NCBI RefSeq assembly: GCF_003933735.1 | Contig: NZ_RSED01000005.1 | Coordinates: forward strand, 124,001-188,000 | Direction: 5' to 3' | Source of the DNA: Aquabacterium soli | Lineage (GTDB): Bacteria > Pseudomonadota > Gammaproteobacteria > Burkholderiales > Burkholderiaceae_C | DNA length: 64,000 nt | Shown: positions 19,050 to 57,637 of the stretch, piece after piece | Position numbering within the stretch: the stretch's first letter is position 1 | Layout: each line of letters starts with the position of its first letter | Program-made: the position numbers and the translations under genes | The notes under the pieces: generated by a model | What the model was told of the DNA's origin: nothing | Seen by the model: only the letters and a program-made list of their open reading frames with translations | Databases searched by the model: none

Positions 19050-19071
19050 TATAATGATAATAATTATCATT
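19050..19071 (+). promoter_or_regulatory. Fur box overlapping a -10 element, upstream of the ECF sigma gene
   Basis: A perfect 9-1-9 inverted repeat AATGATAATAATTATCATT (19053-19071) matches the Fur consensus closely, and a TATAAT (19050-19055) overlaps its left edge. No good -35 is visible. The site is 48 bp before the sigma-factor ATG. Iron-loaded Fur bound here would block the promoter, so the sigma factor and through it the whole locus should be induced by iron starvation. Confidence 0.92.
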
Positions 19072-19118
19072 CAATATGGGGCCTGGCGGCGCTGTCCGGG
19101 CCCTGAAAGGAGCGGCAG

Positions 19119-19637
19119 ATGCTTACTCTGAACGAGCAGCAGGGGCTGGATCTCGGTGCCCTGTTCGTCACGCAGCGGTCCCAGCTCAAGGCTGCGGCGC
19201 TCAAGATCCTGGGCAATGGTCAGCGCGCCGAAGATGTGGTGCAGGACGCCTACCTCAAGCTGGTCGAGTCACCGGTGGCGGCCGAGGTGCGCCAGCCCGT
19301 GGCCTATCTGTTCCAGATGGTGCGCAACCTGGCCATCGACCGGCACCGCCGCACCGCGCTCGAAACGCAGGTCTTTGCGGCAGAAGAAGACGGTGCGCAT
19401 GTGCCCCACCAGAACGGCAGCCCCGAGATGCAGGCCATGCACCGGCAGCAGTTGCGCCTGGTGGCCCATGCGTTGTCGACACTGCCCGAGCGCACGCGCC
19501 GTGCCTTCGAACTCTATCGCCTGGGCGGACTCACGCAGCGCGAGGTGGCCGATGAGCTTGGCATCTCGACCACCTTGGTGAACTTCATGATCCGCGATGC
19601 CATGACCTGCTGCCGGGACGCGCTCGGCCAGAGCTGA
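19119..19637 (+). CDS. ECF RNA polymerase sigma factor, iron-starvation (PvdS/OrbS/FecI) type
   Basis: A 172-residue sigma-70 family ECF factor. Region 2 runs about 20-85 (ILGNGQRAEDVVQDAYLKLVE; AYLFQMVRNLAIDRHRR) and region 4 about 115-165 (LSTLPERTRRAFELYRLGGL; QREVADELGISTTLVNFMIR helix-turn-helix). The SD GAAAGGAG (19105-19112) sits 6 bp before the ATG. A near-perfect Fur box covers its promoter. Three TAAA-N17-CGTC elements, the promoter type recognised by OrbS and PvdS relatives, stand before the biosynthesis, tailoring and export genes of this locus, so this protein is very likely their activator. Its possible regulator, a FecR N-terminal-domain protein, is the next gene. Confidence 0.93.
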   Translation: MLTLNEQQGLDLGALFVTQRSQLKAAALKILGNGQRAEDVVQDAYLKLVESPVAAEVRQPVAYLFQMVRNLAIDRHRRTALETQVFAAEEDGAHVPHQNGSPEMQAMHRQQLRLVAHALSTLPERTRRAFELYRLGGLTQREVADELGISTTLVNFMIRDAMTCCRDALGQS

Positions 19638-19814
19638 TGCGGGTGGCGGCTGGTGGCGGTCTTGGCCGCGACCTCTTTTCCCATGCGGGCAGGCGCGGGT
19701 GCGCTTGTCGCCGCGGGATCCCTAGAATCGGAGCACCGGATCATTCCTGATGAATGCCCGGCGACCTCGGCCGTCCTTGTCCACAGGAACGGCCTGTTCC
19801 GATCGGAAGGGACC

Positions 19815-20054
19815 ATGACGGGATCTGGACAAGACAACGGCGCCGGCGAGGGCGCACAGAATACGCCGAAGGACGATGCCGTGTGGCAGATCGCGCTCGA
19901 CTGGGTGATGCGCCAGCACGAGCAGCCGCTGGACGCTGATGGCGTGGCAGACCTGCGGACCTGGCTCGATGCCGCATCTGCGCACCGCGAGGCCTACGAG
20001 CAGGCCTTGCAGGTCTGGCGCCTCACGGGAGCGAAGCCGTCCTCGGCCGACTGA
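19815..20054 (+). CDS. Stand-alone FecR N-terminal domain (DUF4880-like) protein, putative sigma regulator
   Basis: A protein of 79 residues. After a Gly/Asn-rich start, residues about 22-70 match the cytoplasmic N-terminal domain of FecR/PupR anti-sigma factors: AIDW-like IALDWVMRQH, a VADLRTWLDA helix, then SAHREAYEQALQVW. Full-length FecR proteins (about 320 aa) continue with a membrane segment and a periplasmic domain; here the frame simply ends, and I see no membrane segment. The ATG at 19815 has GGAAGGG upstream; the frame opens at 19653, but those codons look non-coding. It follows the ECF sigma gene by 177 bp. It could modulate the sigma factor in the cytosol, as an anti- or pro-sigma factor. 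Confidence 0.72.
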   Translation: MTGSGQDNGAGEGAQNTPKDDAVWQIALDWVMRQHEQPLDADGVADLRTWLDAASAHREAYEQALQVWRLTGAKPSSAD

Positions 20055-20083
20055 GCCAGCGCGCGGGCCAAGGCATTCGCCAC

Positions 20084-20108: not shown

Positions 20109-20185
20109 AATGGTGCATACCGGCGGACGGCCGGGGTTGTCTCGACCCTGGCGTCCACCGACTCCATCCGTACGAGGGCGCCGCC

Positions 20186-20416
20186 ATGACAAGTTGTTTC
20201 GACCGCGAAGACACGATCTTCCGCGTACTGGTCAACCATGAAGAGCAGTATTCGCTGTGGCCTGAATGGAAGGCCATCCCCGCGGGCTGGCGCGACACTG
20301 GTGTGCAGGGCGACAAGGCCACCTGTGTGGCCCACGTGGACCAGGTCTGGACCGACATGCGCCCCTTGTCGCTGCGTCGCTTCATGGACGAGCAGGCTGC
20401 GGTCGAGGCGCGCTGA
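20186..20416 (+). CDS. MbtH-like NRPS accessory protein
   Basis: A 76-residue MbtH family member. The family signature is evident: [10 protein letters not shown] (18-27), IPAGW (31-35), then a Trp-containing [12 protein letters not shown] stretch. MbtH proteins bind NRPS adenylation domains and are needed for their solubility and amino-acid activation. It is the first gene downstream of the TAAA-N17-CGTC promoter. Its stop codon TGA overlaps the ATG of the thioesterase gene (TGATG), giving translational coupling into the megasynthase operon. Confidence 0.95.
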
Positions 20417-21153
20417 TGCCGGCCCCCGTCTCGCTGCTGTGCCTGCCCTGCGCAGGTGGCAGCGCCACCATGTACCTGCGCTGGAAGCGCCTGGTGCCCG
20501 CCTGGCTGCGCATCGTGCCGGTCGAGCTGCCAGGGCGTGGCGCGCGCCTTGACGAGCCGTGCGAAGCCGCCTTTGACACCCTGGTGGCGCGCCTGTGCGA
20601 CGAGCTTCAGGCCGAACTGGCCGGCCCGCATGCGCTGTTCGGCCACAGCATGGGCGGCTTGCTGGCCCATGGCATCGCGCGGCGCCAACGCCACCTGATT
20701 CGGCGTCTGCCCGAGGCCTTGTTCGTCTCGGCCAGTCCCGCGCCGGCCTGTCGCGATCCAGGCCGTTTTGCCGGCCGCCATGATGACGCCTGGCTCGAAA
20801 GCGATCTGCGCCGCCAGGGCGGGACGCCCGAAGAAGTGCTGGCCGATGCCGAACTGCGGCGCCTGACGCTGAACGTGTTGCGCGCCGACTATGGTGTCTG
20901 CGAGAGCTTCAGCCACCGTCCGCAGGATCCGCCGCTGGAGGTGCCCCTGCACGCTTTCGGCGGACGCGATGACGAGATAGGCGCGCAGCGCCTGACGCCC
21001 TGGCGCGACGAGACGCTCGGCCCCTTCGCCCTGCACTGGTTCGATGGCGGTCACTTCTTCATCCGCCAGCACGAGGCTCTGGTGCTGGACATCGTCGCGC
21101 GAACGCTGTCGGCCGGGCCGGCCAGCACCGCGCCCGAGCCGGTGGCCGCCTGA
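20416..21153 (+). CDS. Type II thioesterase for NRPS/PKS editing
   Basis: A 245-residue alpha/beta hydrolase of the GrsT/type II thioesterase family. The N-terminal LLCLPCAGGSATMYLRW carries the oxyanion-hole region. The nucleophile is Ser78 in GHSMGG, and the C-terminal FDGGHFFI supplies the catalytic His. Such enzymes remove wrong or stalled acyl groups from carrier proteins. The start codon overlaps the MbtH stop by one base. The NRPS start follows after a 113-bp gap in which I see no promoter or terminator. Confidence 0.92.
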   Translation: MPAPVSLLCLPCAGGSATMYLRWKRLVPAWLRIVPVELPGRGARLDEPCEAAFDTLVARLCDELQAELAGPHALFGHSMGGLLAHGIARRQRHLIRRLPEALFVSASPAPACRDPGRFAGRHDDAWLESDLRRQGGTPEEVLADAELRRLTLNVLRADYGVCESFSHRPQDPPLEVPLHAFGGRDDEIGAQRLTPWRDETLGPFALHWFDGGHFFIRQHEALVLDIVARTLSAGPASTAPEPVAA

Positions 21154-21266: not shown

Positions 21267-24200
21267 ATGAGCACGATGGATGCAAGCGAGCACGACACCC
21301 TGGTGTGGCGTCTGCGGCAACTGGCCGCCACCCGCCCCGACGACCTGGCGCTCACCGTCGTCAAGGCCGAAGGCGAGCACGATGCCGAACTCACGCTGAG
21401 CTATGCCCAGCTCGACACGCGCTGCCGCGCCGTGGCCGCCGTGCTGCAAGGCCGTTGGGCACTGGGCGAGCGGGTGCTGCTGCTGATGGACAACGACGAG
21501 CACTACGTGGTGGGCTTCATGGCCTGCCTGTACGCCGGCCTGGTGGCCGTGCCGGTGTTTCCGCCCGAATCACTGCGGGAGCAGCACCTGGCCCGTCTGC
21601 GCGCCATCGCCACGGATGCGCAGGCGTGCGGCGTGCTGAGCACCGAGGCCATGCTGCCGCTGATCCAGCCGCTGCTGGCCCCCGGCGTGGGCCTGGTGGC
21701 GGTGGATGCCGCTTCGCACTGGCCTGCCGCCGACTGGCGCCCCCACGCCCCGCGTGAAGGGGATCTGGCCTTCCTGCAATACACCTCGGGCTCCACCGCC
21801 AGCCCCAAGGGGGTGATGGTCAGCCACGGCAACCTGTCGGCCAACGAGCGGGCGATCGCTGAGGGTTTCGATGTGCGGCCGGACGACGTGGTCGTGTCCT
21901 GGCTGCCGCTGTTCCACGACATGGGGCTGATCGGTGGATTGCTGCAGGCGCTGCATGCCGGTGTGCCGACGGTGCTGATGTCGCCCAGGTACTTCCTGGA
22001 GCGCCCGCTGCGCTGGCTCAAGGCCATTGAGCGCCACCGCGGCACCGTGAGTGGCGGCCCCGACTTCGCCTACCGCCTGTGCCTGGAGCGCATCACCGAT
22101 GCGCAGCGTGACGCGCTGGATCTGTCCAGCTGGCGCCTGGCCTTCTCTGGGGCTGAACCCATCCGGTACGACACGCTGGAGGGCTTCGTGCGCCGCTTCG
22201 CGCCAGCGGGGTTGCGCGCGACGGCCGTCTACCCCTGCTATGGCCTGGCCGAGGCCACGCTGTTCGTCACCGGCTCGCGCCGAGACCAGGGCATGCGCAC
22301 CGCCACCTTCGATGCGCCGGCCCTGGCCCAGGGGCGGGGGGCTGCGGCCGACCAGGGCCGCACGCTGGTGGCCTGTGGCCAGCCGGTGTCCCGACATGCC
22401 CTGCGCATCGCCGATCCGGGGGATGGCCGGGCGTTGGGCGACAGCCAGATCGGCGAGGTGTGGGTGCGCGGGCCCAGTGTGGCGCAGGGCTACTGGGCGC
22501 GGCCCGAGGCCAGTGCCGAGGCCTTCGTGCAGCGCGAGGGGGGGCGCTGGCTGCGCACCGGGGATCTGGGCTTGTGCCATGAGGGGCAGCTTTACATCAC
22601 AGGGCGGCTCAAGGACGTGATCATCGTGCGCGGCCAGAACCTGTACCCCCAGGACATCGAGCGTGCCGTGGAGGCCGGCGTGCCCGAGGTGCGCAAGGGC
22701 CGTGTGGCGGCGTTCGCGGTCGATGGCGTCGGCGGCCTGCCGGGCGAGGGCATCGGCGTGGCGGCCGAGGTGCCGCGCAAGCAGCAGGGCCATGTCTCGC
22801 CGCTCGCGCTGGCCGAGGCCATCGGCAGGGTGCTGGGCGGGCTGTGTGGCGAGCCGGTGTCGGTGGTGGTGCTGCTGCAGCCGGGCGCGTTGCCCAAGAC
22901 TTCCAGCGGCAAGCTGCAGCGCCAGGCGTGCCGGCAGGGCTGGCGTGAGGGCCTGCTCGACACCTTTGCCGTGGTCGAGCATGGGCAACTGGTGCGTGGG
23001 GCCGATGGTGCCTCGGGCGATGCAGGCGCGAACGCTTTGGCGCCCGTGGCGCTCGATGACGACGAACGCGCCCTGACCACGCTGTGGCACGAGGTGTTGC
23101 TGCGCTGGCGGCCGGGCCTGCCGCTGCCCGGCCCCGATGCGCACTTCTTCGTGCTGGGCGGCAACTCGCTGGCCGCCGCGCAGCTGGCCATGCGCATGGG
23201 GGCGCAGTGGGGGCGCGAGGTGCCGCCCCGCCTGCTGTTCGACCACCCGGTGCTGCGTGACTGCACGCGGGCGTTGCTGGCGCTGCCGACGCTGGCGGGG
23301 TCCCAGGGCGTGCAGGCCGATGTCCCGGCATCGGGCGGTCCTGTCTTGCGACCCTTGCCGGCCGAGGCGCGAGCCCGTCCGCAGCCTCTGTCACACGCGC
23401 AGCAGCGCCTGTGGTTCCTGTGGCAGCTCGAGCCGGGCAGCACGGCCTATCACGTCAGTGGTGCCTTGCGCCTGCGTGGCGGGCTGGACATGCGGGCTTG
23501 CCGCTCGGCATTGAACGCACTGGTGGCAAAGCATGAGTCGCTGCGCACGGTGTTCCGCGCCGGGAGCGACGGAGAGCCGCTGCAGCATGTGCAAGCCGCC
23601 GCCTCGATGGCGCTGGCCGAGTGCGATCTGCGCGGTGTGCCATCCGCCGAGCGCGAGGCGCGCGTGCAGGCCTGGGCTCAGGCCGAGCAGGCTCAACCGT
23701 TCGATCTGCGTGAAGGGCCGCTCGTGCGCGCCGCGCTGGCCCGCCTGGCCGATGACGAGCACGTGCTGCTGCTGGTGCTGCACCACATCGTCTGCGATGG
23801 CGAGTCGATGCAGGTGCTGGTGGTGGATCTCGCAGACGCCTACGCTGCCACGCTGGCCGGCACCCCGGTGCCCTTGCCCGCGTGGCCGGCACTGCAGTAC
23901 GCCGACTACGCCGTCTGGCAGCGGGCGTGGCTGGCCGAGGGGCATGCCCGTTCTCAACTGGCGCACTGGCGCGCGCAGCTTGGTGGTGAACAGCCCGTGC
24001 TGGCGCTGCCCACCGACCACCCGCGGGGCCCGGTGGCGGCCTATCGCGCCGCACGGCTGGTTCTGGCGTTGCCGGTCGAGCTGTCGTCGGCGCTGGCACA
24101 GCAGGCCCTTGCACAGGGGGCATCGGTCTTCATGCTGCTGCTGACCGCCTGGCAGGCCCTGCTGTACCGCTGGACGGGCCAGCATGACATCCGCGTGGGG

Positions 24201-26702
24201 GTTCCCGTGGCCAACCGGCACCACGCCGGCACCGAGGGCGTGGTGGGCTTCTTCGTCAACACGCTGGTGATGCGGGCCCGGCTGCAGGGGCGCCTGTCAT
24301 TGCGCGAGGCCTTGCAGGCGGTGCGAGAACAGGCCCTGCAGGCCCAGCAGCACCAGGATCTGCCCTTCGACCAACTGGTCGAGGCGCTGCAGCCAGAGCG
24401 CAGCCTGAGCCACACGCCGCTGTGCCAGGTCACCGCCAACCACCTGAGGCAGGATTGGGCCCAGCATGCCGCGCTGCCGGGCCTGTCGGTCGAACAGCTC
24501 GACCTGCCCGAGGTGGCCGCCCAGTTCGAGCTGACGCTGGAGACGCGCGAGCGCCCCGACGGCACCTTGGGCGCGCACCTGGTCTACGCTGCCGAGTTGT
24601 TCGAGCCGGCCACCATCGAGCGCCTGGGCCAGGGCTGGCTGCGCCTGCTGGAGGCGCTGGCGCACCGGCCTGATCAACCCATGGGCGATGTGGCGCTGCT
24701 CGGCCCCGACGACCACACGTTGCTGGCCGATTGGGGACGTGGCGACCTGCCCGTGACGGGCGCGGATGCCTCTGCCGGAGCCCTGGCGACGCTGCCGCCA
24801 GCGCGTCCACCGTGGGCCCATCAACGCATCGAGGCCGTGGCGCGCCGCCATCCGCATGCCGTGGCGCTGGCCATGGGCGCCACCTCGCTGAGCTTCGGCG
24901 AACTGAACCGTCGTGCCAACCGCCTGGCCCACCGTCTGATCGGCCTGGGCGTGAGACCCGAGGCCAGGGTGGGGGTGGCGCTGGACCGCTCCATCGACCT
25001 CGTGGTGGCCCTGCTGGCCGTGCTCAAGGCGGGTGCCGCCTATGTGCCGCTCGACCCCGACTATCCGCGCGACCGGCTGGACCACATGGTGACCGACAGC
25101 GGGATCGCCTGGGTGCTGACACAGGCCTCGGCCCGCGCGCGGCTGTCGCTGCCGGCCGGGCCGTTGCTGCTGTCTCTGGATGAAGAGGGCGCACAAGGCA
25201 TGCTGCCCGGCACGCATGACGAGAATCCCGCGGTGCCTTTGCACCCGCAGCATCTGGCCTATGTGATCTACACCTCGGGTTCCACCGGCCGGCCCAAGGG
25301 CGTGGCCGTGGCACACGGTCCCCTGGCCATGCACCTCGATGCCATCGCCCAGCGCTACGATGTGCGACCCGGCGACCGCGAACTGCTGTTCTTCTCGATG
25401 AACTTCGATGCGGCCGTCGAGCAGTGGATGACGCCATTGTGCGGTGGCGCTGCGCTGGTGCTGGCCGAGCGTGAGCAACTGGCCATCGAGTCCTTCGCGC
25501 GGCTGATCGCCGAGCAGAGGATCACCACCTTGCACCTGCCGCCGGCTTATCTTCGCCTGCTGGCGCCTGCACTCCAGGGCCGCGATACCCGCGTGCGCAA
25601 CTGCATCGTTGGCGGCGAGGCCTGGTCCGAGGCGGACCTGGCCGACGCGCGTGCGGCCTTGCCGGCCCAGCGTTTCGTCAACGCGTATGGTCCCACCGAA
25701 ACCATCATCACTCCCACCGCCTGGGTGGGTGGTCCCATGGCCGCGGAGGACGGGCCGTCAGGCCTGCGCGTCCAGGGCGCCGTGCCCATCGGCCGGCCCG
25801 TGGGCGACCGCCGTGCCTGGGTGCTCGATGAAGACCTCAACCCCGTGCCTCCCGGCGCCTGTGGCGAGCTTTACATCGGAGGCTTGGGCCTGGCACGCGC
25901 CTACCACGCCAGGCCGGGCCTCAGTGCCGAACGCTTCGTGGCCGATCCCTTCGACACGCAGGGGGGGCGTCTCTACCGCACCGGTGACCGCGTGCGCTGG
26001 CGAGCCGATGGGCAGCTCGACTACCTGGGCCGTCTCGACCAGCAGGTCAAGATCCGGGGGTTCCGCATTGAACTGGGCGAGATCGAATCCGTGCTGCGCG
26101 CACAGCCTGGCGTGGCCGAAGCCGCCGTGCTGGCCCGCACCGGCCCGAGCGGCCCGCGCCTGGTGGGCTACGCCACTGCGCGCGAAGGCGAGGTGATCGA
26201 GGCCGCGGCACTCAAGGCTGCGTTGTCGGCCCGTCTGCCCGACTACATGGTGCCCGGCACGCTGGTGCTGTTGAGCGCCTTGCCGCTCAACCCGAACGGC
26301 AAGGTCGATCGCGCCGCGCTTCCCGAGCCTGCCGCCCAGCCGGACAGCGCTCAAGAGGCCCCCAAGGGCACGGTGGCCTCGGTGATCGCCGGCATCTGGG
26401 CCCAGGCCCTGGGCCTGCCCCGAGTGGGCCTGCACGACAACTTCTTTGACCTGGGTGGCCATTCGCTGCTGCTGATGAAGGTGCAGCGCCAGCTGGAGCA
26501 GGCGCTTGATGCGCGCGTGTCGGTGATCGACCTGTTCCGCTGCACCACGGTGGCCACGTTGGCCGCCCACCTCGAAGCGCAGGCGCGTGGCGACGGCGTT
26601 GCTGGCGTCGAAGCCGGCCTGCAACAGCACCAGGCCCGCGCTCGCCGCCAGCGCCGCGCCTTCCTGCCCCGCAAACCGACCGTCGAAAGGACCCCGTCAT
26701 GA
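21267..26702 (+). CDS. NRPS 1: FAAL-PCP-C-A-PCP (fatty acid loading and first amino acid)
   Basis: An 1811-residue megasynthase. Residues about 1-575 are a fatty-acyl-AMP ligase (QYTSGSTASPKGV near 171-183, LFHDMGLIGGL). A carrier protein follows (Ser634 in LGGNSLA). The condensation domain (about 708-1140) has HHIVCDG at 839-845, the adenylation domain (about 1200-1650) has [12 protein letters not shown] at 1335-1346, and the second carrier has Ser1733 (LGGHSL). Pocket residues aligned by eye to GrsA read D-A-E-H-I-G-A-I-T; the Glu suggests a basic amino acid such as ornithine or arginine, but I cannot assign it. The enzyme thus activates a fatty acid and joins it to the first amino acid, making a lipid tail. 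It overlaps the PKS gene by 4 bp (ATGA). Confidence 0.93.
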   Translation: MSTMDASEHDTLVWRLRQLAATRPDDLALTVVKAEGEHDAELTLSYAQLDTRCRAVAAVLQGRWALGERVLLLMDNDEHYVVGFMACLYAGLVAVPVFPPESLREQHLARLRAIATDAQACGVLSTEAMLPLIQPLLAPGVGLVAVDAASHWPAADWRPHAPREGDLAFLQYTSGSTASPKGVMVSHGNLSANERAIAEGFDVRPDDVVVSWLPLFHDMGLIGGLLQALHAGVPTVLMSPRYFLERPLRWLKAIERHRGTVSGGPDFAYRLCLERITDAQRDALDLSSWRLAFSGAEPIRYDTLEGFVRRFAPAGLRATAVYPCYGLAEATLFVTGSRRDQGMRTATFDAPALAQGRGAAADQGRTLVACGQPVSRHALRIADPGDGRALGDSQIGEVWVRGPSVAQGYWARPEASAEAFVQREGGRWLRTGDLGLCHEGQLYITGRLKDVIIVRGQNLYPQDIERAVEAGVPEVRKGRVAAFAVDGVGGLPGEGIGVAAEVPRKQQGHVSPLALAEAIGRVLGGLCGEPVSVVVLLQPGALPKTSSGKLQRQACRQGWREGLLDTFAVVEHGQLVRGADGASGDAGANALAPVALDDDERALTTLWHEVLLRWRPGLPLPGPDAHFFVLGGNSLAAAQLAMRMGAQWGREVPPRLLFDHPVLRDCTRALLALPTLAGSQGVQADVPASGGPVLRPLPAEARARPQPLSHAQQRLWFLWQLEPGSTAYHVSGALRLRGGLDMRACRSALNALVAKHESLRTVFRAGSDGEPLQHVQAAASMALAECDLRGVPSAEREARVQAWAQAEQAQPFDLREGPLVRAALARLADDEHVLLLVLHHIVCDGESMQVLVVDLADAYAATLAGTPVPLPAWPALQYADYAVWQRAWLAEGHARSQLAHWRAQLGGEQPVLALPTDHPRGPVAAYRAARLVLALPVELSSALAQQALAQGASVFMLLLTAWQALLYRWTGQHDIRVGVPVANRHHAGTEGVVGFFVNTLVMRARLQGRLSLREALQAVREQALQAQQHQDLPFDQLVEALQPERSLSHTPLCQVTANHLRQDWAQHAALPGLSVEQLDLPEVAAQFELTLETRERPDGTLGAHLVYAAELFEPATIERLGQGWLRLLEALAHRPDQPMGDVALLGPDDHTLLADWGRGDLPVTGADASAGALATLPPARPPWAHQRIEAVARRHPHAVALAMGATSLSFGELNRRANRLAHRLIGLGVRPEARVGVALDRSIDLVVALLAVLKAGAAYVPLDPDYPRDRLDHMVTDSGIAWVLTQASARARLSLPAGPLLLSLDEEGAQGMLPGTHDENPAVPLHPQHLAYVIYTSGSTGRPKGVAVAHGPLAMHLDAIAQRYDVRPGDRELLFFSMNFDAAVEQWMTPLCGGAALVLAEREQLAIESFARLIAEQRITTLHLPPAYLRLLAPALQGRDTRVRNCIVGGEAWSEADLADARAALPAQRFVNAYGPTETIITPTAWVGGPMAAEDGPSGLRVQGAVPIGRPVGDRRAWVLDEDLNPVPPGACGELYIGGLGLARAYHARPGLSAERFVADPFDTQGGRLYRTGDRVRWRADGQLDYLGRLDQQVKIRGFRIELGEIESVLRAQPGVAEAAVLARTGPSGPRLVGYATAREGEVIEAAALKAALSARLPDYMVPGTLVLLSALPLNPNGKVDRAALPEPAAQPDSAQEAPKGTVASVIAGIWAQALGLPRVGLHDNFFDLGGHSLLLMKVQRQLEQALDARVSVIDLFRCTTVATLAAHLEAQARGDGVAGVEAGLQQHQARARRQRRAFLPRKPTVERTPS

Positions 26703-46984: not shown

Positions 46985-47224
46985 TCAGCCGCGCCGCCAG
47001 GCGAACCACAGCCCCACCACCAGCGGCAGCGACAGCGTGGCCCACGACACCGCGTCCCACACGCCGTCGCCGACCAGTGCCGAGACCAGGCCCGCCGCGC
47101 TGGCCAGGCCGATCAGCAGCGGCCAGCGGAACACCCGCCACAGGCCGTGGCGGCGCGCCTGGCGCCGTGCGGCACGGCTGGAGGCTTCTTGGGGCGCGGC
47201 ATGGCGTCGAGAAGACGCACTCAT
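46985..47224 (-). CDS. Small two-segment membrane protein at the end of the receptor/PepSY operon
   Basis: A 79-residue protein. The first 28 residues are Arg/Ala-rich and soluble; two hydrophobic segments follow (WPLLIGLASAAGLVSALVG and VSWATLSLPLVVGLWFAW), with an Arg-Arg C-terminus. Its ATG overlaps the stop of the PepSY gene by 4 bp, so it is translated with it. I do not recognise a named family with certainty; small proteins of this build accompany PepSY-type iron reductases in siderophore loci. A supporting role in the ferric-siderophore reductase complex is inferred from context only. Confidence 0.7.
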   Translation of the reverse strand: MSASSRRHAAPQEASSRAARRQARRHGLWRVFRWPLLIGLASAAGLVSALVGDGVWDAVSWATLSLPLVVGLWFAWRRG

Positions 47225-48366: not shown

Positions 48367-49637
48367 GCGGAGACTCCTTGTTCGAGGGCGGCGGATCGCT
48401 GGCGCAGCAGGGTACGGTGTCGCACGCGGCCCCGGCGCTTCTTCCACCAGATCACCACGCCGGTGATGGACAGCATCGCCACCAGGAGGCCCATCACGGA
48501 CATCACGATGCGCCCCGGCATGCCCAGGATGCGGCCCGAGTGCAGCGGGAACTGCAGCTGCACGAAGACATCGGCGGCCGTGCCCTCCCAGGGGGTGCGG
48601 TCGCCCAGCAGGCGGCCGTCGAGGCCGTCGTAGTAGAGGGTCTTGACGGCCATGCCGCCGCTGACGCGGTCCTGCTCGCCTTCGAAGAAGCGCACGCCGT
48701 ACACACCCAGCCCCTGGGTGTAGAACACATTGCCTGCAGGCTCGGTCCAGCCACGCTTCGCGGCCTCGCCTCTGGCCTGGGCCAACACCTCGGGAAAGCC
48801 CAGGCGCGGGGTGATGGGTTGGTGCTCGGGCGCAGGCTGGCGCAGCTCGAAGGGCCCCGGCGTGACCTTGGACACCATCGACATCACCGGGAAGAACACC
48901 TCGCGGTACAGGTTCAGCGAGAAGGCGGTGAAGGCGATCACCAGCACCAGGGCCCAGGTCCACAGGCCGCCCGCGCGGTGAAGGTCGACGTTGAGCCGGT
49001 AGGGCCCGCCGCCCGTGCGCACGCGCCAGGCCGGCCACCAGCGGCGCCACACGGAGGCCGCTGGCGATGCGTTCGCCGCGCGGGCCTTGCGGCGCACAGG
49101 CCACGTCAGCACGATGGCAACGAAGGCATCGACCAGCCATACCAGCGCCACCGCGCCCATCAGCCACACGCCCCATTCGTCGATGCCCCACACCTCGGGC
49201 AGGTGCAGCGTGTAGTGCAGCTTGTACAGGAAAGGCATCAGGTTCTCGCGCGAGAGCGAGAACACGCCCCACTCGCGCTGGCCCTGGATCTGCCCGGTGA
49301 CCGGGTCGATGAAGACCTGGTTGTAGTCCAAAGGAAAAAGCCGCCCGGTGGCGGCATCGACGCGGGGGCGGACCACGAAGGGCCGCGCCAGGTCGTCACG
49401 CTGATGCAGCGGCACCAGCGTGACCCGGGCCCGCGGGTCGGCGGCTTCGATGAGGGCCGCCAGTTCCAGCGGTGGCTTGTGCGGCCCTTGGCTGCGGATA
49501 TCGAACAACCCGCGGTTGAGCCAGCTGTCGATCTCATGGTCCCAGGAGATCACCGCGCCGGTGAGCCCGGACACCACCAGGAAACCTGCAATGAACAGGC
49601 CGAAGGTGCGGTGCAGCAGGGTCAGGATGGGGCGCAT
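48363..49637 (-). CDS. PepSY-associated transmembrane protein (putative ferric-siderophore reductase subunit)
   Basis: A 424-residue PepSY_TM family protein. The N-terminal segment LLHRTFGLFIAGFLVVSGLTGAV has the usual His just before the helix. Later segments are WGVWLMGAVALVWLVDAFVAIVL, GLWTWALVLVIAFTAFSLNLY and IVMSVMGLLVAMLSITGVVIW. Histidines at LHRTFG, WDHEID, LHYTLHLP and LHRAGG are candidate heme ligands. Two PepSY-like periplasmic stretches lie between the helices. It starts 22 bp after the receptor gene and overlaps the second PepSY gene by 4 bp, so receptor, both PepSY proteins and the small membrane protein form one iron-uptake operon. Confidence 0.86.
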   Translation of the reverse strand: MRPILTLLHRTFGLFIAGFLVVSGLTGAVISWDHEIDSWLNRGLFDIRSQGPHKPPLELAALIEAADPRARVTLVPLHQRDDLARPFVVRPRVDAATGRLFPLDYNQVFIDPVTGQIQGQREWGVFSLSRENLMPFLYKLHYTLHLPEVWGIDEWGVWLMGAVALVWLVDAFVAIVLTWPVRRKARAANASPAASVWRRWWPAWRVRTGGGPYRLNVDLHRAGGLWTWALVLVIAFTAFSLNLYREVFFPVMSMVSKVTPGPFELRQPAPEHQPITPRLGFPEVLAQARGEAAKRGWTEPAGNVFYTQGLGVYGVRFFEGEQDRVSGGMAVKTLYYDGLDGRLLGDRTPWEGTAADVFVQLQFPLHSGRILGMPGRIVMSVMGLLVAMLSITGVVIWWKKRRGRVRHRTLLRQRSAALEQGVSA

Positions 49638-51894: not shown

Positions 51895-51963
51895 GAAGGA
51901 ACTCCTTAAGACTTTGGTGGCTTGCTTGCCGGCAAGGTGCGATGGGGACGCAGTCGGGCAAGG

Positions 51964-51988
51964 CACGGCGCCTGCGTTGGGCGCCGTG
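51964..51988 (-). promoter_or_regulatory. Leader hairpin of the siderophore receptor gene
   Basis: A perfect 9-bp inverted repeat CACGGCGCC / GGCGCCGTG (51964-51972 and 51980-51988) with a 7-nt loop lies in the presumed 5' leader, between the Fur box and the receptor ATG. No T-run follows in the direction of transcription, so it is not a standard terminator. Confidence 0.45.
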
Positions 51989-52002
51989 GTGACAGCCGAA
52001 GA

Positions 52003-52024
52003 TGCTAATTGATAATGATTAGCA
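52003..52024 (-). promoter_or_regulatory. Fur box upstream of the siderophore receptor operon
   Basis: Inverted repeat TGCTAAT (52003-52009) / ATTAGCA (52018-52024) surrounds TGATAATG; the core AATTGATAATGATTAGCAA resembles the Fur consensus well. It is about 110 bp before the receptor ATG. The receptor operon lacks a TAAA-N17-CGTC element, so direct Fur control is the visible iron switch. Confidence 0.85.
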
Positions 52025-52069
52025 ATATCTGTGTCATTTGGCCCCCGCCCCCGCGACTGAGGGGCTGGC

Positions 52070-53017
52070 TCAGCGCCAGGCGTCGTTCAGCACCGTGCCG
52101 ATGTCCTGGCGAACCTGTTCGGCGCCATCGGTGATGTCTGCCAGTCGCGCGAAGTCATGCACCATGCCCTCATAGACCGTGGTGCGCACCGGCACACCCG
52201 CCTGGGTCAGGCGCTCGGCGTAGGCCAGGCCTTCGTCAAGCAGCGGGTCGTACTCGGCCAAGGCGATGAAGACGGGCGGCATTGCGTCCAGTCTCGGCGC
52301 GAGCAGCGGCGCGAAGCGCCAATCCTGGCGGTCGCCGGGCGAGCGCAGGTAGTTGGTGTACATCCATTGCAGGGTCTCGCTTTCGAGCAGCAGGCCCTGG
52401 CCATGGGCGCGGTGCGAAGGGGTGTCCTGCTCGGGGGCGGTGCACGGGTAGAGCAGCACCTGGGCACAGGGCAGGGCGGCACCCTCGTCGCGCAGGGCCA
52501 GGCACAGCGTGGTGGCCAGTGTCGCGCCGGCGCTGTCACCGCCGACGGCCAGCCGTGAGATGTCCAGGCCCAGCGCGTCGGCGTGTCGACGCAGCCAGTC
52601 GTGGCTGTCGCGGGCGTCGTCCACCGCGGTCGGGAAGCGGTGCTCGGGCGCGAGCCGGTAGGCCACCGAGAACACGGCGCAGGGCGCCAGGGTGGCCAGC
52701 GCACGGCACAGGCCATCGTGCGAATCGAGCCCGCCGACGCAGTAGCCGCCGCCATGGAAATACAGCAGCACCGGCGCGCGATCAGCCAGGCCGGCTGGGC
52801 GGTACAGGCGCGCCGCAAGCACGTGCCCGTCACGGGTGTCGATGCTCAGGTCCTGCACCAGGGCCACCTCGGCAGGATCGGATTCGAGCACCAGCGACGT
52901 GGTGTCGTACTGCGCCCTGGCATCGGCAGGTGGCAGTTGGTGCAGGAGCGGTCGGCCTTGTTCGCGGCCCAGTTCGGCCAGTTCCAGGAAGGCTTCCAGA
53001 TCGGGGTGGAGCGGCAT
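52070..53017 (-). CDS. HSL-family alpha/beta hydrolase (esterase) of the siderophore operon
   Basis: A 315-residue hormone-sensitive-lipase family esterase. The oxyanion motif HGGG is at 88-91, the nucleophile is Ser162 in GDSAG, and the other triad residues are probably Asp257 (AEYDPL) and His287 (GMVHDF). No signal peptide is present, so it should act in the cytosol. It follows the ornithine monooxygenase by 24 bp on the same strand and is likely the last gene of the acyltransferase-monooxygenase operon. Possible jobs are hydrolysis of the imported ferric siderophore to free iron, or trimming of an acyl/ester bond during synthesis; the sequence does not decide. Confidence 0.85.
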   Translation of the reverse strand: MPLHPDLEAFLELAELGREQGRPLLHQLPPADARAQYDTTSLVLESDPAEVALVQDLSIDTRDGHVLAARLYRPAGLADRAPVLLYFHGGGYCVGGLDSHDGLCRALATLAPCAVFSVAYRLAPEHRFPTAVDDARDSHDWLRRHADALGLDISRLAVGGDSAGATLATTLCLALRDEGAALPCAQVLLYPCTAPEQDTPSHRAHGQGLLLESETLQWMYTNYLRSPGDRQDWRFAPLLAPRLDAMPPVFIALAEYDPLLDEGLAYAERLTQAGVPVRTTVYEGMVHDFARLADITDGAEQVRQDIGTVLNDAWR

Positions 53018-53041
53018 CGGATCGGTGTGCTCGACAGGTGT

Positions 53042-54340
53042 TCAGAACGCCACGGCCAGATGCCGGCTCGGTGCCGTGCCGCGATGCGCGTGCAGCCATT
53101 GCGTCAGTGAATCGACGATCTCGCCCGTGCGCACCGAGGTCACCGACAGCAGCGTGTCGCTCAGCCCATGTGTGAGTTCGCAGCAGCCCTGAAGGAAGAT
53201 GGCCGGGCCGAAGTGCTCGGTCGCCTGCACGCGGTAGTCGCGCGTCACATCCATGTTGCCCAGGTGCTGTGCCAGCGGCTCCAGCAGCGCATGGTGCGTG
53301 TCGCGCACATAGCCGGTGGCCAGCACGATGGCGTCGTAGTGCGCCGTCGTGGTGCCGCCTTGGTCCAGGTCGCGCAGCCGCAAGCTCAGGCCCTCGCGGG
53401 TTTCCGCCACGTGTTCCACCTCGTGCCTGCGCAGGAAGCGGTGGGTCTGGGGCGCGCCCACCTTCTGGCGGTAGAACACCTGGTAGATCTGCTCGATCAG
53501 GGCCAGATCGGGTGCCGCGTAGTTGGTGTTCATGAACTCTTCCAGCAGCGCGGCGCGTTGTGGCTGGGGCTGCTGGTAGACGTAGTCCGTGAACTCGGGA
53601 TTGAAGATCTCGTTGACGAAGGGGCTGTCGTCCGAAGGCTTGATCGAGCGTGCGCGCATGACCAGGTCCACATCGATGCCGCCGCGGTTGTTGAGGTCCA
53701 GGAAGATCTCGGATGCGCTTTGGCCGGCGCCGATCACGGCCATGCGTCGGGGCTGGTTCTGTTGCGCCATGGCGCCCAGGTAGCGGCTGGAGTGGAAGAC
53801 GCGCGGGTCGTCCCTGAACGGGGCGAAGGGCGTGGGCACGTTCGCTGCGCCGCCGACGCTGATCACCAGCGAGCGGGTCAGGCGTTCGCGCACGCCGTGC
53901 TCCGGGTGATGCGATCGCACGCGCAGCAGTGCCACGCGATCACCCTGGAACTCGGGGTGCACCTCGACCACGGCTTCGCCAAAGGCGCACTGGTCGGCGA
54001 AATGACCGGCCGCCCACGACAGGTAGTCGTTGAACTCGTGGCGGCTGGGATAGAAGGTCTTGAGGTTGATGAAGTCCTGCAGGCGGTGCTTGGCGTGCAG
54101 GTAGTTCAGGAAGGTGTAGGGGCTGGCCGGGTTGCGCAATGTGGCCAGGTCCTTGAGGAAGGATATCTGCATGTGCGCGTGGTCCAGCAGCATGTTGGGG
54201 TGCCAGGCGAACTGCGGCTGCTTCTCGATGAACAGGGCGTCCACCGGCGTCTGGCCATCCTGGGTGCGCTCCTGCAGCGCGATGGCCAGGGCCAGGTTGG
54301 AGGGGCCGAAGCCGATGCCGATCAGGTCATGGATGTGCAT
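53042..54340 (-). CDS. L-ornithine N5-monooxygenase (PvdA/SidA/IucD family)
   Basis: A 432-residue FAD- and NADPH-dependent N-hydroxylating monooxygenase that makes N5-hydroxyornithine, precursor of hydroxamate ligands. The FAD motif GIGFGPSNLALA is at residues 8-19, followed by the family stretch FAWHPNMLLDHAHMQISFLKDL read in two parts (about 49-70) and NPASPYTFLNYL. The NADPH motif AVIGAGQSASEI and a C-terminal VLATGYVRD also fit. The ATG at 54340 starts directly before the FAD strand with AGAGGA upstream; the frame opens at 54487, but those codons overlap the acyltransferase gene and are non-coding in character. A 14-bp overlap with the acyltransferase shows one operon. Confidence 0.95.
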   Translation of the reverse strand: MHIHDLIGIGFGPSNLALAIALQERTQDGQTPVDALFIEKQPQFAWHPNMLLDHAHMQISFLKDLATLRNPASPYTFLNYLHAKHRLQDFINLKTFYPSRHEFNDYLSWAAGHFADQCAFGEAVVEVHPEFQGDRVALLRVRSHHPEHGVRERLTRSLVISVGGAANVPTPFAPFRDDPRVFHSSRYLGAMAQQNQPRRMAVIGAGQSASEIFLDLNNRGGIDVDLVMRARSIKPSDDSPFVNEIFNPEFTDYVYQQPQPQRAALLEEFMNTNYAAPDLALIEQIYQVFYRQKVGAPQTHRFLRRHEVEHVAETREGLSLRLRDLDQGGTTTAHYDAIVLATGYVRDTHHALLEPLAQHLGNMDVTRDYRVQATEHFGPAIFLQGCCELTHGLSDTLLSVTSVRTGEIVDSLTQWLHAHRGTAPSRHLAVAF

Positions 54341-55463
54341 GCGGAAGTCCTCTTGGATGTTCTGGTGAAGGAGAGGGCAGGGCGCGCGGACGCCACAGCG
54401 CCTCGTCGAAGAAGCGGTCGCGCAGCAGCATGCCCAGCATGGCCCGCTTGTGCGGGAAGTCGAAAGGCTTGAGGTGCGCATATCCACACAGCGCCAGGCT
54501 GCGCAGCATCTTGTCGTTGTCGATGCGTGGCTCGATCACCAGGCGCTGGGTGCGCGGGTCGTCCAGGAACAGGTGGTGCGACACCGAGGGCATCCAGGCG
54601 CTCACGTACGGCCGGCCGCGCCAGGCGGGCTCGCCCACCAGCACGTGCCAGCCGCGATCGAAATCCTGCACATCGTAGAAGGGGGCGATGCGGTCTTCGC
54701 GGGCCCAGTAGGCTTCCACGTACAGGCAGGGCTGATCGCCGAAACTCCCGATCAGCGCGGTGGTGTGTGCGTCGCGTGCCACCTTGTCGATGTAGGCACG
54801 GTGACGCTCGAGATCGCCGCTTTCCTGCCAGAAGTGGTCCACCACCGGGTCGTTCATCCATCGGTGCAGCAGATCCAGATCGTGGGCGGGCTGCAGCGCC
54901 CGCAGGCTGAAATCCAACCCCAGCCAAGGGATGTGGCGGCGATAGACCTCGCCCTCGGGTTTGGGGGGGCGAAGCGGATGTCGGCGGCCCTCGGTGATCA
55001 CATGGCGTTGTGCAAAGGGCTGGAGGTTGATGGTGGTGGCTTGCCACAGGCGCGCCAGCTGCCAGAGGCTGGCTCGATGAGCGATCAGGCCGTGCCCGCC
55101 TTCTTGCAGGCTGCCATTGGCCAGCAGTGACGGCGCCAGATGCCGGGCCTCGATGGGCAGCGTCACCTGGGCCAAGTCGGGCTGCGTGGCAAAGAGTGCA
55201 TCCAGCGCGGCCAGCACGGCACGCGTGTGCTCACCCGTTGCCGCGTTGTCCGGGTCGGGCCAGGCAGGCTGGGGCGACAGCGTCCAGCCGGTGCTGGTCG
55301 AATCGAGTGCCCACATGGTGCTGCCTGCGGTGTGTCGCACCGTGAGCACGTGACCATCGCGCAGCACCGTCAGCGGACACCCGTCGAGGTGTGACACGAA
55401 GGTGCCGCAGGCGCCGTCTGTGGGCGGTGCAGGGGGCGTGCCGTGGCGTGGATGGGGTGACAT
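54327..55463 (-). CDS. Siderophore acyltransferase (GNAT, IucB/AlcB-like), N5-hydroxyornithine acylation
   Basis: A 378-residue protein. The C-terminal ~200 residues form an IucB/AlcB-type GNAT domain: LDFSLRALQPAHDLDLLHRW, HFWQESGDLERHR, PCLYVEAYWAREDRIAPFYD, RGWHVLVGEPAWRGRPYVSA read in parts, then the conserved RLVIEPRIDNDK. The N-terminal part is the less conserved extension seen in larger members. It should transfer an acyl group (acetyl, formyl-like or fatty acyl) to N5-hydroxyornithine to form the hydroxamate. The start at 55463 (MSPHPRHG) is chosen because the longer frame to 55532 begins only 3 bp after the CGTC promoter element, leaving no leader. It is the first gene of the tailoring operon. 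Confidence 0.9.
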   Translation of the reverse strand: MSPHPRHGTPPAPPTDGACGTFVSHLDGCPLTVLRDGHVLTVRHTAGSTMWALDSTSTGWTLSPQPAWPDPDNAATGEHTRAVLAALDALFATQPDLAQVTLPIEARHLAPSLLANGSLQEGGHGLIAHRASLWQLARLWQATTINLQPFAQRHVITEGRRHPLRPPKPEGEVYRRHIPWLGLDFSLRALQPAHDLDLLHRWMNDPVVDHFWQESGDLERHRAYIDKVARDAHTTALIGSFGDQPCLYVEAYWAREDRIAPFYDVQDFDRGWHVLVGEPAWRGRPYVSAWMPSVSHHLFLDDPRTQRLVIEPRIDNDKMLRSLALCGYAHLKPFDFPHKRAMLGMLLRDRFFDEALWRPRALPSPSPEHPRGLPHAHP

Positions 55464-55534
55464 GCGGGGCAACTCGACGATGGTGTGACAGATGGACGCA
55501 AGGCGGGCCAGCAAGCGGCAGGCCGTCCCCACAT

Positions 55535-55559
55535 GACGAACCAGGGCGCCACTTGTTTA
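55535..55559 (-). promoter_or_regulatory. OrbS/PvdS-type promoter (TAAA-N17-CGTC) for the acyltransferase operon
   Basis: On the minus strand TAAA (55559-55556) is followed after exactly 17 bp by CGTC (55538-55535). It points at the acyltransferase, monooxygenase and esterase genes and leaves a leader of about 65 nt before the chosen ATG at 55463. It is back-to-back with a second copy for the exporter. Confidence 0.8.
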
Positions 55560-55581
55560 GGCAAGGCGATGCCCGCGCCGC

Positions 55582-55606
55582 TAAACATCCGTCCGGCTGT
55601 TTCGTC
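55582..55606 (+). promoter_or_regulatory. OrbS/PvdS-type promoter (TAAA-N17-CGTC) for the exporter gene
   Basis: TAAA (55582-55585) and CGTC (55603-55606) are separated by exactly 17 bp and point toward the ABC exporter. The position rules out the far upstream start of that open frame (55485) and supports the GTG at 55656. Confidence 0.8.
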
Positions 55607-55655
55607 TTGTTCCCATGGGCCGCGTGGGTGGCCGGTGTCGAAAGGCGAGATTGCC

Positions 55656-57284
55656 GTGCTGTCCTTCCTGATCCAACAATCGCGTGGGCGCCTGCTGGCC
55701 GCCTGCGTGGCCAGCGCCGCGGCCGGTGTGTGCGGCGTGCTTCTGGTGGCCCTGATCAACAGTGCGCTCACGGCCGATGCCTCTGCGCGCGGCGGCCTGG
55801 CCTGGCAGTTCGCCGCGGTGGCCGTGGGTGCGATGCTCAGTCGCATGGCCGCCTCGGTGCTGTTCGAGCACCTGCGCCAGAGCGCCAATGCCGATCTGCG
55901 CCGCCACATTGCCCAGCGTGCCAATGCGGCGGGCTTTCGGCAGCTGGAGCAGGTGGGCCCGGCCCGGGTGCAGTCGGCCCTGGCAGAGCACGCGACCAGC
56001 GTGGCGCAGTTCTTCGTCAGCATGCCCACCATCCTCACCAATGCGGTGATCGTGGTGGGGTGCCTGGTGTACTTGGCGCTGCTGTCCTGGCAGGTTTTCC
56101 TGGCGGCCATCTTGGTGATCGGGCTGGGCTCTGTGGGCTATCACCTGGCACACCTGCGCGCCATCCGCCATCTGAACGTGGCTGCGCGCGAGCAGGATCA
56201 GCTGTTCGGCCACTTCAGGGCCATCACCGACGGCGCCAAGGAACTGCGGCTGAACCGCCAAAAGCGCGGGGCCTTCACCGAGGAGGTGCTGGGCGAATCG
56301 ATCGAGACCGTGCGCCGCGAGCGTGCTCTGGGCATGTCCATCTTCGTGGCCTCGACCAGCTGGGGGCACTTCCTGATCTACGCCTTCATCGGCTTGGTGC
56401 TGTTTGCGCTGGTGGGCGGGGATGCACCGGAGCGAACGCGCGTGATGACCGGGTTTGCGCTGGTGTTCGTGTACATGGTGCCGCCACTGGAGGGGCTGTT
56501 GGTCAACATCCCGCATGCCAACCTGGCCCGTTCGGCTTCCAACCGCATCGAAGAAGTCACGCAGGGGCTGGCGAGCGCCGAAGCCGAGGCCGCCGCCGCG
56601 CAGGTGCCCGCAGCCTTCCAGCAGCTGTCGCTGCAAGGCGTACGTCACAGCTATCACCATGAGCAGCGCAACGAGGTGTTCACACTGGGCCCCATCGACC
56701 TGCGCTTCCATCCCGCAGAGGTGGTGTTCCTGGTGGGCGGCAACGGCAGCGGCAAGACCACGCTGGCCAAGCTGATCACCGGGCTTTACGTGCCGGAGCA
56801 GGGCCGCGTGGTGCTCAATGGCCAGCCGGTCGATGACGCCAGCCGCGACCAGTACCGGCAGATCTTCTCGGCCATCTTTTCGGATTTCCACCTGTTCGAC
56901 CGCCTGCTCGAGGCCGCCAGTCCCACGCTGGACGACCAGGCCAACCGCCTGATCGAGCGCCTCCACCTGCAGCACAAGGTGCAGGTCAAGAACGGCGCAT
57001 TCACCACACAGGCCTTGTCACAGGGACAGCGCAAGCGCCTGGCGCTGGTGGCCGCCTGCCTGGAAGACCGCCCGTTCCTGGTGTTCGACGAGTGGGCAGC
57101 AGACCAGGATCCGGCCTTCAAGGACGTGTTCTACAAGGAGGTGCTGCCCGAGCTGCGGGCGCAGGGCAAGACCGTGCTCGTGATCTCTCACGACGACCGC
57201 TATTTTCATCTCGCCGATCGCCTGGTGCGCCTGGAGAGCGGCCAGGTCGTGGACGATGGCGGTGCGCGCGCCGAGGCAGCATGA
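55656..57284 (+). CDS. Cyclic peptide/siderophore ABC exporter (PvdE/SyrD family), fused permease-ATPase
   Basis: A 542-residue half-transporter. Six membrane segments fill about 1-310 (LAACVASAAAGVCGVLLVALI near the start; TNAVIVVGCLVYLALLSW; the last pair around 250-300). The ATPase has Walker A GGNGSGKTTL (361-370), the variant signature LSQGQRKRLAL, Walker B FLVFDEWAADQDP and a switch His (VISHDDRYF). PvdE moves the acylated pyoverdine precursor to the periplasm, and a similar job is likely. The GTG at 55656 is chosen: AAAGGCGAG ends 6 bp upstream and it lies about 50 nt after the promoter; the frame is open to 55485. It overlaps the Fur-like gene by 4 bp. Confidence 0.93.
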   Translation: MLSFLIQQSRGRLLAACVASAAAGVCGVLLVALINSALTADASARGGLAWQFAAVAVGAMLSRMAASVLFEHLRQSANADLRRHIAQRANAAGFRQLEQVGPARVQSALAEHATSVAQFFVSMPTILTNAVIVVGCLVYLALLSWQVFLAAILVIGLGSVGYHLAHLRAIRHLNVAAREQDQLFGHFRAITDGAKELRLNRQKRGAFTEEVLGESIETVRRERALGMSIFVASTSWGHFLIYAFIGLVLFALVGGDAPERTRVMTGFALVFVYMVPPLEGLLVNIPHANLARSASNRIEEVTQGLASAEAEAAAAQVPAAFQQLSLQGVRHSYHHEQRNEVFTLGPIDLRFHPAEVVFLVGGNGSGKTTLAKLITGLYVPEQGRVVLNGQPVDDASRDQYRQIFSAIFSDFHLFDRLLEAASPTLDDQANRLIERLHLQHKVQVKNGAFTTQALSQGQRKRLALVAACLEDRPFLVFDEWAADQDPAFKDVFYKEVLPELRAQGKTVLVISHDDRYFHLADRLVRLESGQVVDDGGARAEAA

Positions 57285-57637
57285 GCGTGGCGAACGAAGC
57301 GGGTGTGGTGGATGCCGTGGACCTGGGCATGGGGGAGGGGACCAAGGCCTTGTCGGGGGAGGCGTTGACATCCTGGCACGGGGTGCCGCTGTCCGGGCTG
57401 CTCAGGCAGGCGGGTGTGCGCGTGACGCTCCCAAGGCTGTTGGTGATGGAGTGCCTGTGGGAATCACCGGGCCAGGTGCTGAACGCCAACGCGCTCTACC
57501 AGTTGCTGCAGGCGCGGCGCCAGCCCATGAGCCTGTCGACCATCTACGCGGTGCTGCAGACCTTGCGGCAGCACCAATTGGTCAAGGTTCATCTGCTGAC
57601 CGCTGGGGTGCAGGGTTTCGCCTCGCTGGAGGGCTGA
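57281..57637 (+). CDS. Fur-family protein reduced to its DNA-binding half
   Basis: A protein of 118 residues. After a poorly conserved 35-residue start it follows the Fur winged helix closely: LLRQAGVRVTLPRLLVMECL, NANALYQLLQAR, LSTIYAVLQTLRQHQLVKVH, then GVQGFASLEG and stop. Ordinary Fur (about 140-150 aa) continues with the HHDH and CxxC metal sites and the dimerisation domain; all of that is missing, and the codons after the stop belong to the convergent amidase gene. It may compete with Fur for operators, heterodimerise poorly, or act as an iron-independent regulator. It is coupled to the exporter by a 4-bp overlap and so should be induced with it. Confidence 0.8.
   Translation: MSVANEAGVVDAVDLGMGEGTKALSGEALTSWHGVPLSGLLRQAGVRVTLPRLLVMECLWESPGQVLNANALYQLLQARRQPMSLSTIYAVLQTLRQHQLVKVHLLTAGVQGFASLEG

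Follow-up and report, generated by a model that had tools for sequence, protein, structure and literature searches.

The DNA analyzed here is a stretch of 64,000 nucleotides of Aquabacterium soli (contig NZ_RSED01000005.1, positions 124,001 to 188,000; hereafter the window), which carries between its positions 19,050 and 57,637 a predicted siderophore locus combining nonribosomal peptide synthetases (NRPSs) with a polyketide synthase (PKS). The source genome (G000, contig C63) is a 5.4-Mb assembly of 117 contigs that is rated 100% complete. The original prediction had named a Fur box, a sigma factor, MbtH, a type II thioesterase, the NRPS-PKS line, hydroxamate genes, an exporter, a receptor and PepSY reductases; all of these were found at the predicted coordinates and in the predicted order, without internal stops (Table 1). 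An HSL-type esterase, a FecR-N-like open reading frame (ORF) and a Fur-like half protein had not been listed. Coding content was well beyond chance, with Pfam E-values down to 1e-290, and judged by its genes this is a real, intact siderophore locus of a known kind.

Table 1. Features of the siderophore locus in the window (positions of the window).
Feature	Position	Strand	Details
Fur box	19050..19068	none	50 bp ahead of sigma factor gene; 2 mismatches to consensus
ECF (extracytoplasmic function) sigma factor	19119..19637	+	Pfam Sigma70_r2/r4; NCBIfam NF005448 221 bits, cut-off 190
Small FecR-N-like (DUF4880) ORF	19653..20054	+	Pfam PF16220; 54% in Aquabacterium relative
MbtH-like protein	20186..20416	+	Pfam PF03621 1e-23
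Type II thioesterase	20416..21153	+	Pfam PF00975 8e-43; start inferred within ORF 20266-21153
NRPS 1: FAAL-PCP-C-A-PCP	21267..26702	+	A code DAEHIGAIT (residue X1)
PKS module KS-AT-KR-ACP	26699..31420	+	Presumed malonyl-type AT motif
NRPS 2: C-A-PCP	31417..34899	+	A code DLTKVGHVG (Asp); single C domain, no E, no TauD
NRPS 3: C-A(DGECTGGIT)-PCP-E-C-A(DFWNVGMVH, presumed Thr)-PCP-C-A(DGEAVGGVT)-PCP-TE	34900..46917	+	
PepSY-TM protein	47221..48366	-	Pfam PF03929 3e-64 on 47221-48363
Second PepSY-TM protein	48363..49637	-	Pfam PF03929 4e-58
TonB-dependent siderophore receptor	49660..51966	-	Pfam; TIGR01783 320 bits, cut-off 223.5
Second Fur box	52011..52029	none	Just upstream of receptor gene; 2 mismatches on minus strand
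HSL-family alpha/beta hydrolase, possible siderophore esterase	52070..53017	-	Pfam PF07859 4e-70
L-ornithine N5-monooxygenase	53042..54340	-	Pfam PF13434 7e-118; start inferred within ORF 53042-54487
Hydroxyornithine acyltransferase (GNAT, Acetyltransf_8)	54327..55463	-	Pfam PF13523 2e-51; start inferred within ORF 54327-55532
Cyclic-peptide/siderophore export ABC transporter	55485..57284	+	TIGR01194 462 bits, cut-off 286; start uncertain
ORF with N-terminal DNA-binding half of Fur protein only	57092..57637	+	Pfam PF01475 positions 2-69 of 121; 56% in Aquabacterium relative

The predicted Fur box ahead of the sigma factor gene was borne out, and a second box, absent from the original prediction, was found upstream of the receptor gene; both show two mismatches, on the better strand, to the Fur consensus. 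Together they account for four strand-matches, where 100 shuffles lead one to expect 0.00, and they were the only Fur sites in the 64-kb window when up to three mismatches were allowed. The locus combines an ornithine N-monooxygenase, an acyltransferase and NRPS hydroxyornithine modules, the set of a hydroxamate siderophore made by an NRPS; with the TIGR01783 receptor and the TIGR01194 exporter, the two boxes point to iron-regulated production and transport, the regulation being predicted from sequence. The nearest cluster, from Candidatus Aquabacterium excrementipullorum (L004, genome G007) of the same genus group, encodes locus proteins 54-95% identical to those of the window and likewise has a Fur box with two mismatches ahead of its sigma factor gene. 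Since the product is not known, a non-working locus might be considered, either decayed or making a lipopeptide other than a siderophore; but the large ORFs are all intact, the locus has its Fur boxes, hydroxamate genes, receptor and exporter, and it is kept in a second Aquabacterium genome. We regard this explanation as highly improbable.

The motifs of the C, E, carrier, KS, AT, KR and TE domains are present. In the Asp module the C domain reads HHxxxDA in place of HHxxxDG, and behind the carrier, which has the motif GGHSL, there is no E domain. The AT motif is HAFH, which we take to be malonyl-type. A-domain codes (the first nine residues of the pocket) were derived from alignments, and the five codes of the window stand in the order DAEHIGAIT (X1, the first residue), DLTKVGHVG, DGECTGGIT, DFWNVGMVH, presumably a Thr code, and DGEAVGGVT; the Aquabacterium relative has the same five save one I/V exchange. 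As a control, the codes of the tistrellabactin cluster were read, and 7/7 matched Table 1 of PMC10391617. According to PMC12283262, DLTKVGHVGK is an Asp/Asn code, and the codes for N5-modified ornithine include DGECTGGITK, DGEACGGVTK, DGEGSGGVTK and DVWNIGLIHK. DGEAVGGVT is here termed hydroxyornithine-type because it is one letter from DGEACGGVT and because of its placement in the A-domain tree. The chain predicted from these codes is fatty acid - X1 plus reduced malonate - Asp - D-hydroxyornithine - Thr - hydroxyornithine. The residue order originally proposed for an iron-regulated lipopeptide siderophore line is therefore supported by the codes for Asp, two hydroxyornithine-type residues and Thr; the basic residue queried there for the first module is one candidate among several for X1.

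Iron starvation would relieve Fur at both boxes, and the sigma factor would then drive the operon. FAAL would load the fatty acid that forms the putative lipid tail, module 1 would add X1, and the PKS would add and reduce malonate to give a beta-hydroxy-gamma-amino acid. Asp, D-N5-hydroxyornithine, Thr and the terminal hydroxyornithine would follow, with the monooxygenase and the acyltransferase supplying the hydroxyornithine hydroxamates, and the TE domain would release the chain. Export would proceed through the TIGR01194 transporter and import through the receptor, and the PepSY proteins, which we assume to be iron reductases, would reduce the iron. The HSL-family esterase probably aids iron release; that it does so by opening an ester is a guess. 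At release the terminal hydroxyornithine may cyclise, as has been reported for terminal hydroxyornithines (PMC12283262).

A whole-genome search of A. soli revealed no TauD gene, and Pfam-type scans of the locus proteins recognised no oxygenase other than the ornithine monooxygenase. TauD is fused behind a C domain in the Variovorax cluster VborC12 and lies just upstream of the FAAL gene in the putative crochelin cluster of Azotobacter chroococcum. Beta-hydroxy-Asp was rejected as a constituent of the product, with no TauD gene and neither an E domain after Asp nor an extra C domain. The locus might still belong to a relative of variochelin, vacidobactin or crochelin in which a non-TauD enzyme, or one encoded elsewhere, makes beta-hydroxy-Asp: it shares the FAAL-A-PKS start, stands in a sister group on the KS-AT tree described below and has an Asp A domain with the usual code. 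The oxygenase scans (non-TauD hydroxylase families were not searched genome-wide), the GGHSL carrier and an Asp position that varies across the group argue against this relationship, which we consider improbable.

The distribution of the locus was analyzed in related genomes. In the genus search an NRPS match was found in 26/42 genomes, with more than 45% identity to NRPS 2 only in A. soli and the Aquabacterium relative. Matches to a PKS fragment occurred in 2/100 genomes of the family and 8/300 of the order, the window's own genome counted in each, and in 42/125 genomes of another family of the same order, labelled f16. AmoA (PF02461) was detected in 8/10 f16 genomes tested, 0/2 Aquabacterium genomes and 0/14 controls; f16 is therefore taken as a family of ammonia oxidisers and is probably Nitrosomonadaceae. 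Clusters were analyzed from 22 of the 42 f16 genomes with a match (20 plus G290 and G326), the code counts resting on a profile-based domain map. The X1 code was DAEHIGAIT in 21 of these and DAEHIGAVT in one (G447); together with the two Aquabacterium clusters, 24/24 have the code DAEHIGA(I/V)T next to FAAL and to a PKS from a single KS-AT group. In a quick-method tree of the KS-AT region with 38 rows, five of them outgroup rows, the 24 DAEHIGA clusters came together (support 98; 94 with rooting on the outgroup rows), the window and its Aquabacterium relative standing beside the 22 f16 clusters. Their sister group comprised nine rows, including all six TauD-bearing clusters (98). By this tree the group to which the locus belongs is separate from the variochelin/crochelin type.

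TauD was present in 0/24 DAEHIGA clusters and in 6/9 clusters of the sister group (VborC12, A. chroococcum, OB3b, G302, G320 and G277), in each case within the stretches read. Genome-wide, none was found in 22/24 DAEHIGA genomes (G000, G290, G326 and 19/20 of the further f16 genomes); G007 and G463 gave one match each, on a contig other than that of the cluster. The three remaining sister-group clusters (Janthinobacterium fluminis, Azohydromonas lata and G438) are incomplete, and for G438, a 7.6-kb contig, the TauD search was not genome-wide. The J. fluminis cluster (L005) has DVWNIGLIH ahead of the PKS and again further along, with no TauD nearby, and is possibly another case of beta-hydroxy-Asp loss.

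Comparison of the DAEHIGA clusters revealed constant and variable positions. The terminal code was hydroxyornithine-type in 18/18 clusters read to the TE domain (17 DGEAVGGVT, one DGECIGGIT), and a hydroxyornithine-type code preceded the E domain in 16/18, the exceptions being G525 (Ser) and G529 (masked by N). The residue ahead of the D residue was Asp (the two Aquabacterium clusters), Gly, Ser, DGEDHGTVT, DADDNGAVT or none, and the residue ahead of the last was Thr, DGEDHGTVT, DADDN-type, Ser, Gly or none. X1-malonate, D-hydroxyornithine and terminal hydroxyornithine are near-constant, and the rest varies, Asp included. One cluster (L199-L200, genome G541) has DGECIGGIT at both hydroxyornithine positions, as though one module had replaced the other.

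We interpret the locus, with a probability of roughly 0.55, as a complete Fur-controlled assembly line that lacks an Asp beta-hydroxylase and whose product is an N-acylated, amphiphilic peptide siderophore, with the X1-malonate unit as third iron ligand and Asp as a spacer. Genes, domain order, codes, Fur boxes, clade and the lack of TauD are seen in the sequence; iron binding, the lipid tail, the third ligand and the part played by the esterase are deduced from them. The case for the unit as ligand is indirect: variochelin and tistrellabactin have three bidentate groups apiece (PMC10999976, PMC10391617), whereas the window keeps two canonical ones. Crochelin, of which 4-amino-3,5-dihydroxypentanoate is a component (PMC6664392), was reported to bind iron via its gamma-amino acid (PMC7947814). 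The family of the locus lacks the enzyme that commonly makes one of three iron-binding groups, and its peptide probably holds iron in another manner.

Several observations weigh against this interpretation. TauD does not occur throughout the sister group: the sole TauD gene of J. fluminis lies mid-contig on a contig of 326,809 bases and its cluster on one of 213,377 bases, so that this cluster is probably without TauD too, and the two TauD genes of A. lata are on small contigs other than that of the cluster. As the two groups part at a single deep split, the association between TauD and X1 comes close to one evolutionary event. Genome G487 is only 83% complete, and reading as far as the TE domain was possible for 18 of the 24 DAEHIGA clusters; the remaining six stop at a contig end or are disrupted, either behind the PKS or one module later. 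The cluster of G525 is complete and has one hydroxyornithine-type code besides X1 and DGEDHGTVT; because Ser precedes the E domain, the count of three ligands fails there, unless DGEDHGTVT is hydroxylated as well. Finally, the X1 code is one letter off the Arg consensus of PMC12283262, and Arg would leave two classical ligands only.

Hydroxyornithine, Arg or another residue are all candidates for X1, and neither trees nor code settle the choice. Graminine was discarded, its published code DVHRTGLVAK (PMC10391617, Table 1) being absent from all five amino-acid A domains. A specific form of the proposed ligand is N5-acyl-N5-hydroxyornithine, giving a tris-hydroxamate in which the first hydroxamate residue is malonate-extended; with three hydroxamates, the lack of TauD would be accounted for. 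We put the chance of this form a little below even. In whole-domain trees the A domain of X1 stood beside 12 hydroxyornithine-type domains in a set of 48 rows (100/98) and beside 33 in a set of 88 rows (support 91), code position 278 is His and not the Asp of the Arg consensus, and the sister clusters VborC12, A. lata, J. fluminis and G320 carry the N5-modified ornithine code DVWNIGLIH in the slot of X1. The 48-row tree first looked decisive, but it was set aside as proof of X1: placement with the basic-residue codes was not rejected for the pocket region alone (44 rows, p-AU 0.33), nor for the 88-row whole-domain set including DADDN rows (p-AU 0.34). An apparent rejection of that placement (p-AU 6.5e-5) was not used, as its cause was a constraint that separated the DADDN rows from the basic set within which they nest. 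Moreover, a single clade of the X1 domain and the DVWNIGLIH domains of the sister clusters was rejected (p-AU 1.4e-4), and the X1 code is nearer to the Arg consensus than to the hydroxyornithine codes.

With Arg as X1, as in variochelin, the product would contain a guanidino beta-hydroxy-gamma-amino acid and two hydroxamates, completed by weaker oxygen donors (the beta-hydroxy group, the Asp carboxylate) or binding iron merely four-fold. DAEHIGAIT fits 8/9 positions of the consensus D(A/V)ED(I/V/L)GA(V/I)(T/D) (PMC12283262), and the acylated N-terminus of variochelin carries Arg plus methylmalonate (PMC10999976). Outside the pair of X1, the nearest row in the 44-row pocket tree was DAEDVGAVT of Eleftheria terrae (path 2.30), a hydroxyornithine-type row being nearly level (2.32). 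Yet position 278, acidic in the consensus, is His in 24/24 clusters, and variochelin retains beta-hydroxy-Asp as third ligand, whereas the A. soli genome has no TauD. Arg at this position is possible, but we hold it to be doubtful. The E. terrae code belongs to a plasmid-borne, FAAL-started cluster of siderophore type (L134) with TauD and no PKS match in its stretch, the first code of which fits the Arg consensus.

Returning to the proposal that X1-malonate is the third ligand, we suggest tentatively, and at odds clearly short of even, that the unit represents an undescribed, chain-extended type of iron ligand, either a hydroxamate lengthened by malonate or a chelating beta-hydroxy-gamma-amino acid of a new kind, and that it defines a siderophore group widespread in ammonia oxidisers and shared with Aquabacterium. 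The eLife survey PMC12971057 distinguishes eight labelled chelating groups and states that some PKS-made chelators escape its rules; X1-malonate is not among the chelating groups named in its available text.

Further observations concern single genes of the locus and its surroundings. The HSL-family hydrolase, a putative siderophore esterase, is 48% identical to a hydrolase of a Pseudomonas aeruginosa pyoverdine locus and has homologues at 56-60% in five f16 clusters and G302. A pyoverdine locus with an HSL-type hydrolase beside the receptor gene is plasmid-borne in P. aeruginosa (L139, plasmid pHPA0170-2). The FecR-N-like ORF adjoins the sigma factor gene and has homologues in the Aquabacterium relative, G530, G535 and G320. 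Directly upstream of the locus lies another TonB-dependent receptor gene (16838-18964), for which the window scan gave no Fur box of its own, and farther upstream a flavin monooxygenase-like ORF on the minus strand (13786-15003).

Among the matches listed in literature searches, no chemical study of this cluster was found for Nitrosomonas or Nitrosospira siderophores in the text available, and none on this locus for Aquabacterium siderophore NRPS clusters. According to the review PMC9693385, Nitrosomonas europaea makes no siderophore, two other ammonia oxidisers have aerobactin genes, and in vitro studies of siderophore production in such bacteria were lacking. The CAS (chrome azurol S) assay of N. 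europaea was negative (PMC3050691), an NRPS siderophore module was described in the gammaproteobacterium Nitrosococcus oceani AFC132 (PMC7285500), and for N. ureae transporters only are given (PMC4786657). The siderophore kind is known, but the group is little studied, its third ligand unexplained and its home in nitrifiers unexpected. As 42/125 genomes of the family match the PKS and all 22 clusters analyzed fall into one group, iron acquisition of nitrifiers becomes testable with a named gene set, and the pattern of constant and variable positions points chemists to a single unit that is likely to be the third iron ligand.

The original prediction had placed the locus in the style of variochelin and vacidobactin. 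The FAAL start and the PKS after the first residue agree with this; the genome without TauD, the different KS-AT group and the AT motif that we presume to be malonyl-type do not. Variochelin is a lipohexapeptide of Arg plus methylmalonate, Pro, Ser, beta-hydroxy-Asp (made by an embedded TauD domain) and two acetyl-hydroxyornithines (PMC10999976). The variochelins of Variovorax thus resemble the predicted product in an acylated, PKS-extended first residue, two hydroxyornithines and a lipid tail, and differ in the TauD-made beta-hydroxy-Asp, methylmalonate, Pro and Ser, where the window has no TauD, a malonyl-type motif, Thr and no Pro or Ser code. The KS-AT group of the locus differs from that of Variovorax VborC12; the PKS of variochelin itself was not among the tree rows. 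V. boronicumulans CC172 was rejected as variochelin reference, its PKS cluster C12 having no Arg- or Pro-like code and its NRPS stretch C9 no PKS match. The acidobactins, vacidobactins and variobactins of Acidovorax and Variovorax are likewise FAAL-started NRPS-PKS peptides with ornithine residues (PMC4598715), but VborC12, apparently of this type, has TauD fused in an NRPS and belongs to the other KS-AT group.

The putative crochelin cluster of A. chroococcum is a member of the sister group and begins with the same FAAL-A-PKS order. Its X1 is Ser by code (DVWHVSLID), it has a stand-alone TauD, and DGEDQTTVT is followed by a terminal DVWNIGLIH, in contrast to DAEHIGAIT and no TauD in the window. 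Plasmid pOB3b3 of the methanotroph Methylosinus trichosporium OB3b (L133) carries a TauD-FAAL-NRPS-PKS cluster of siderophore type with three DVWNIGLIH modules. The A. chroococcum plasmid cluster L126 has the codes DGECTGGVT, DGECTGGVT, Ser and DGECTGGVT; we take it to be the amphibactin cluster, since its code order fits the residue order that we assume for amphibactin. It resembles the locus in its hydroxyornithine-type code, three-hydroxamate logic and lack of a TauD match in the 41-kb stretch mapped, and differs in having neither FAAL nor a PKS match of its own, with hydroxyornithine in the first, second and fourth positions and Ser in the third. The clusters of the ammonia oxidisers (22 of 42 analyzed) differ from the locus in their spacers, Asp and Thr being confined, within the 24, to the two from Aquabacterium; they share with it the KS-AT group, the X1 code, the PKS, no TauD alongside and, in all that reach the TE domain, the terminal hydroxyornithine-type code.

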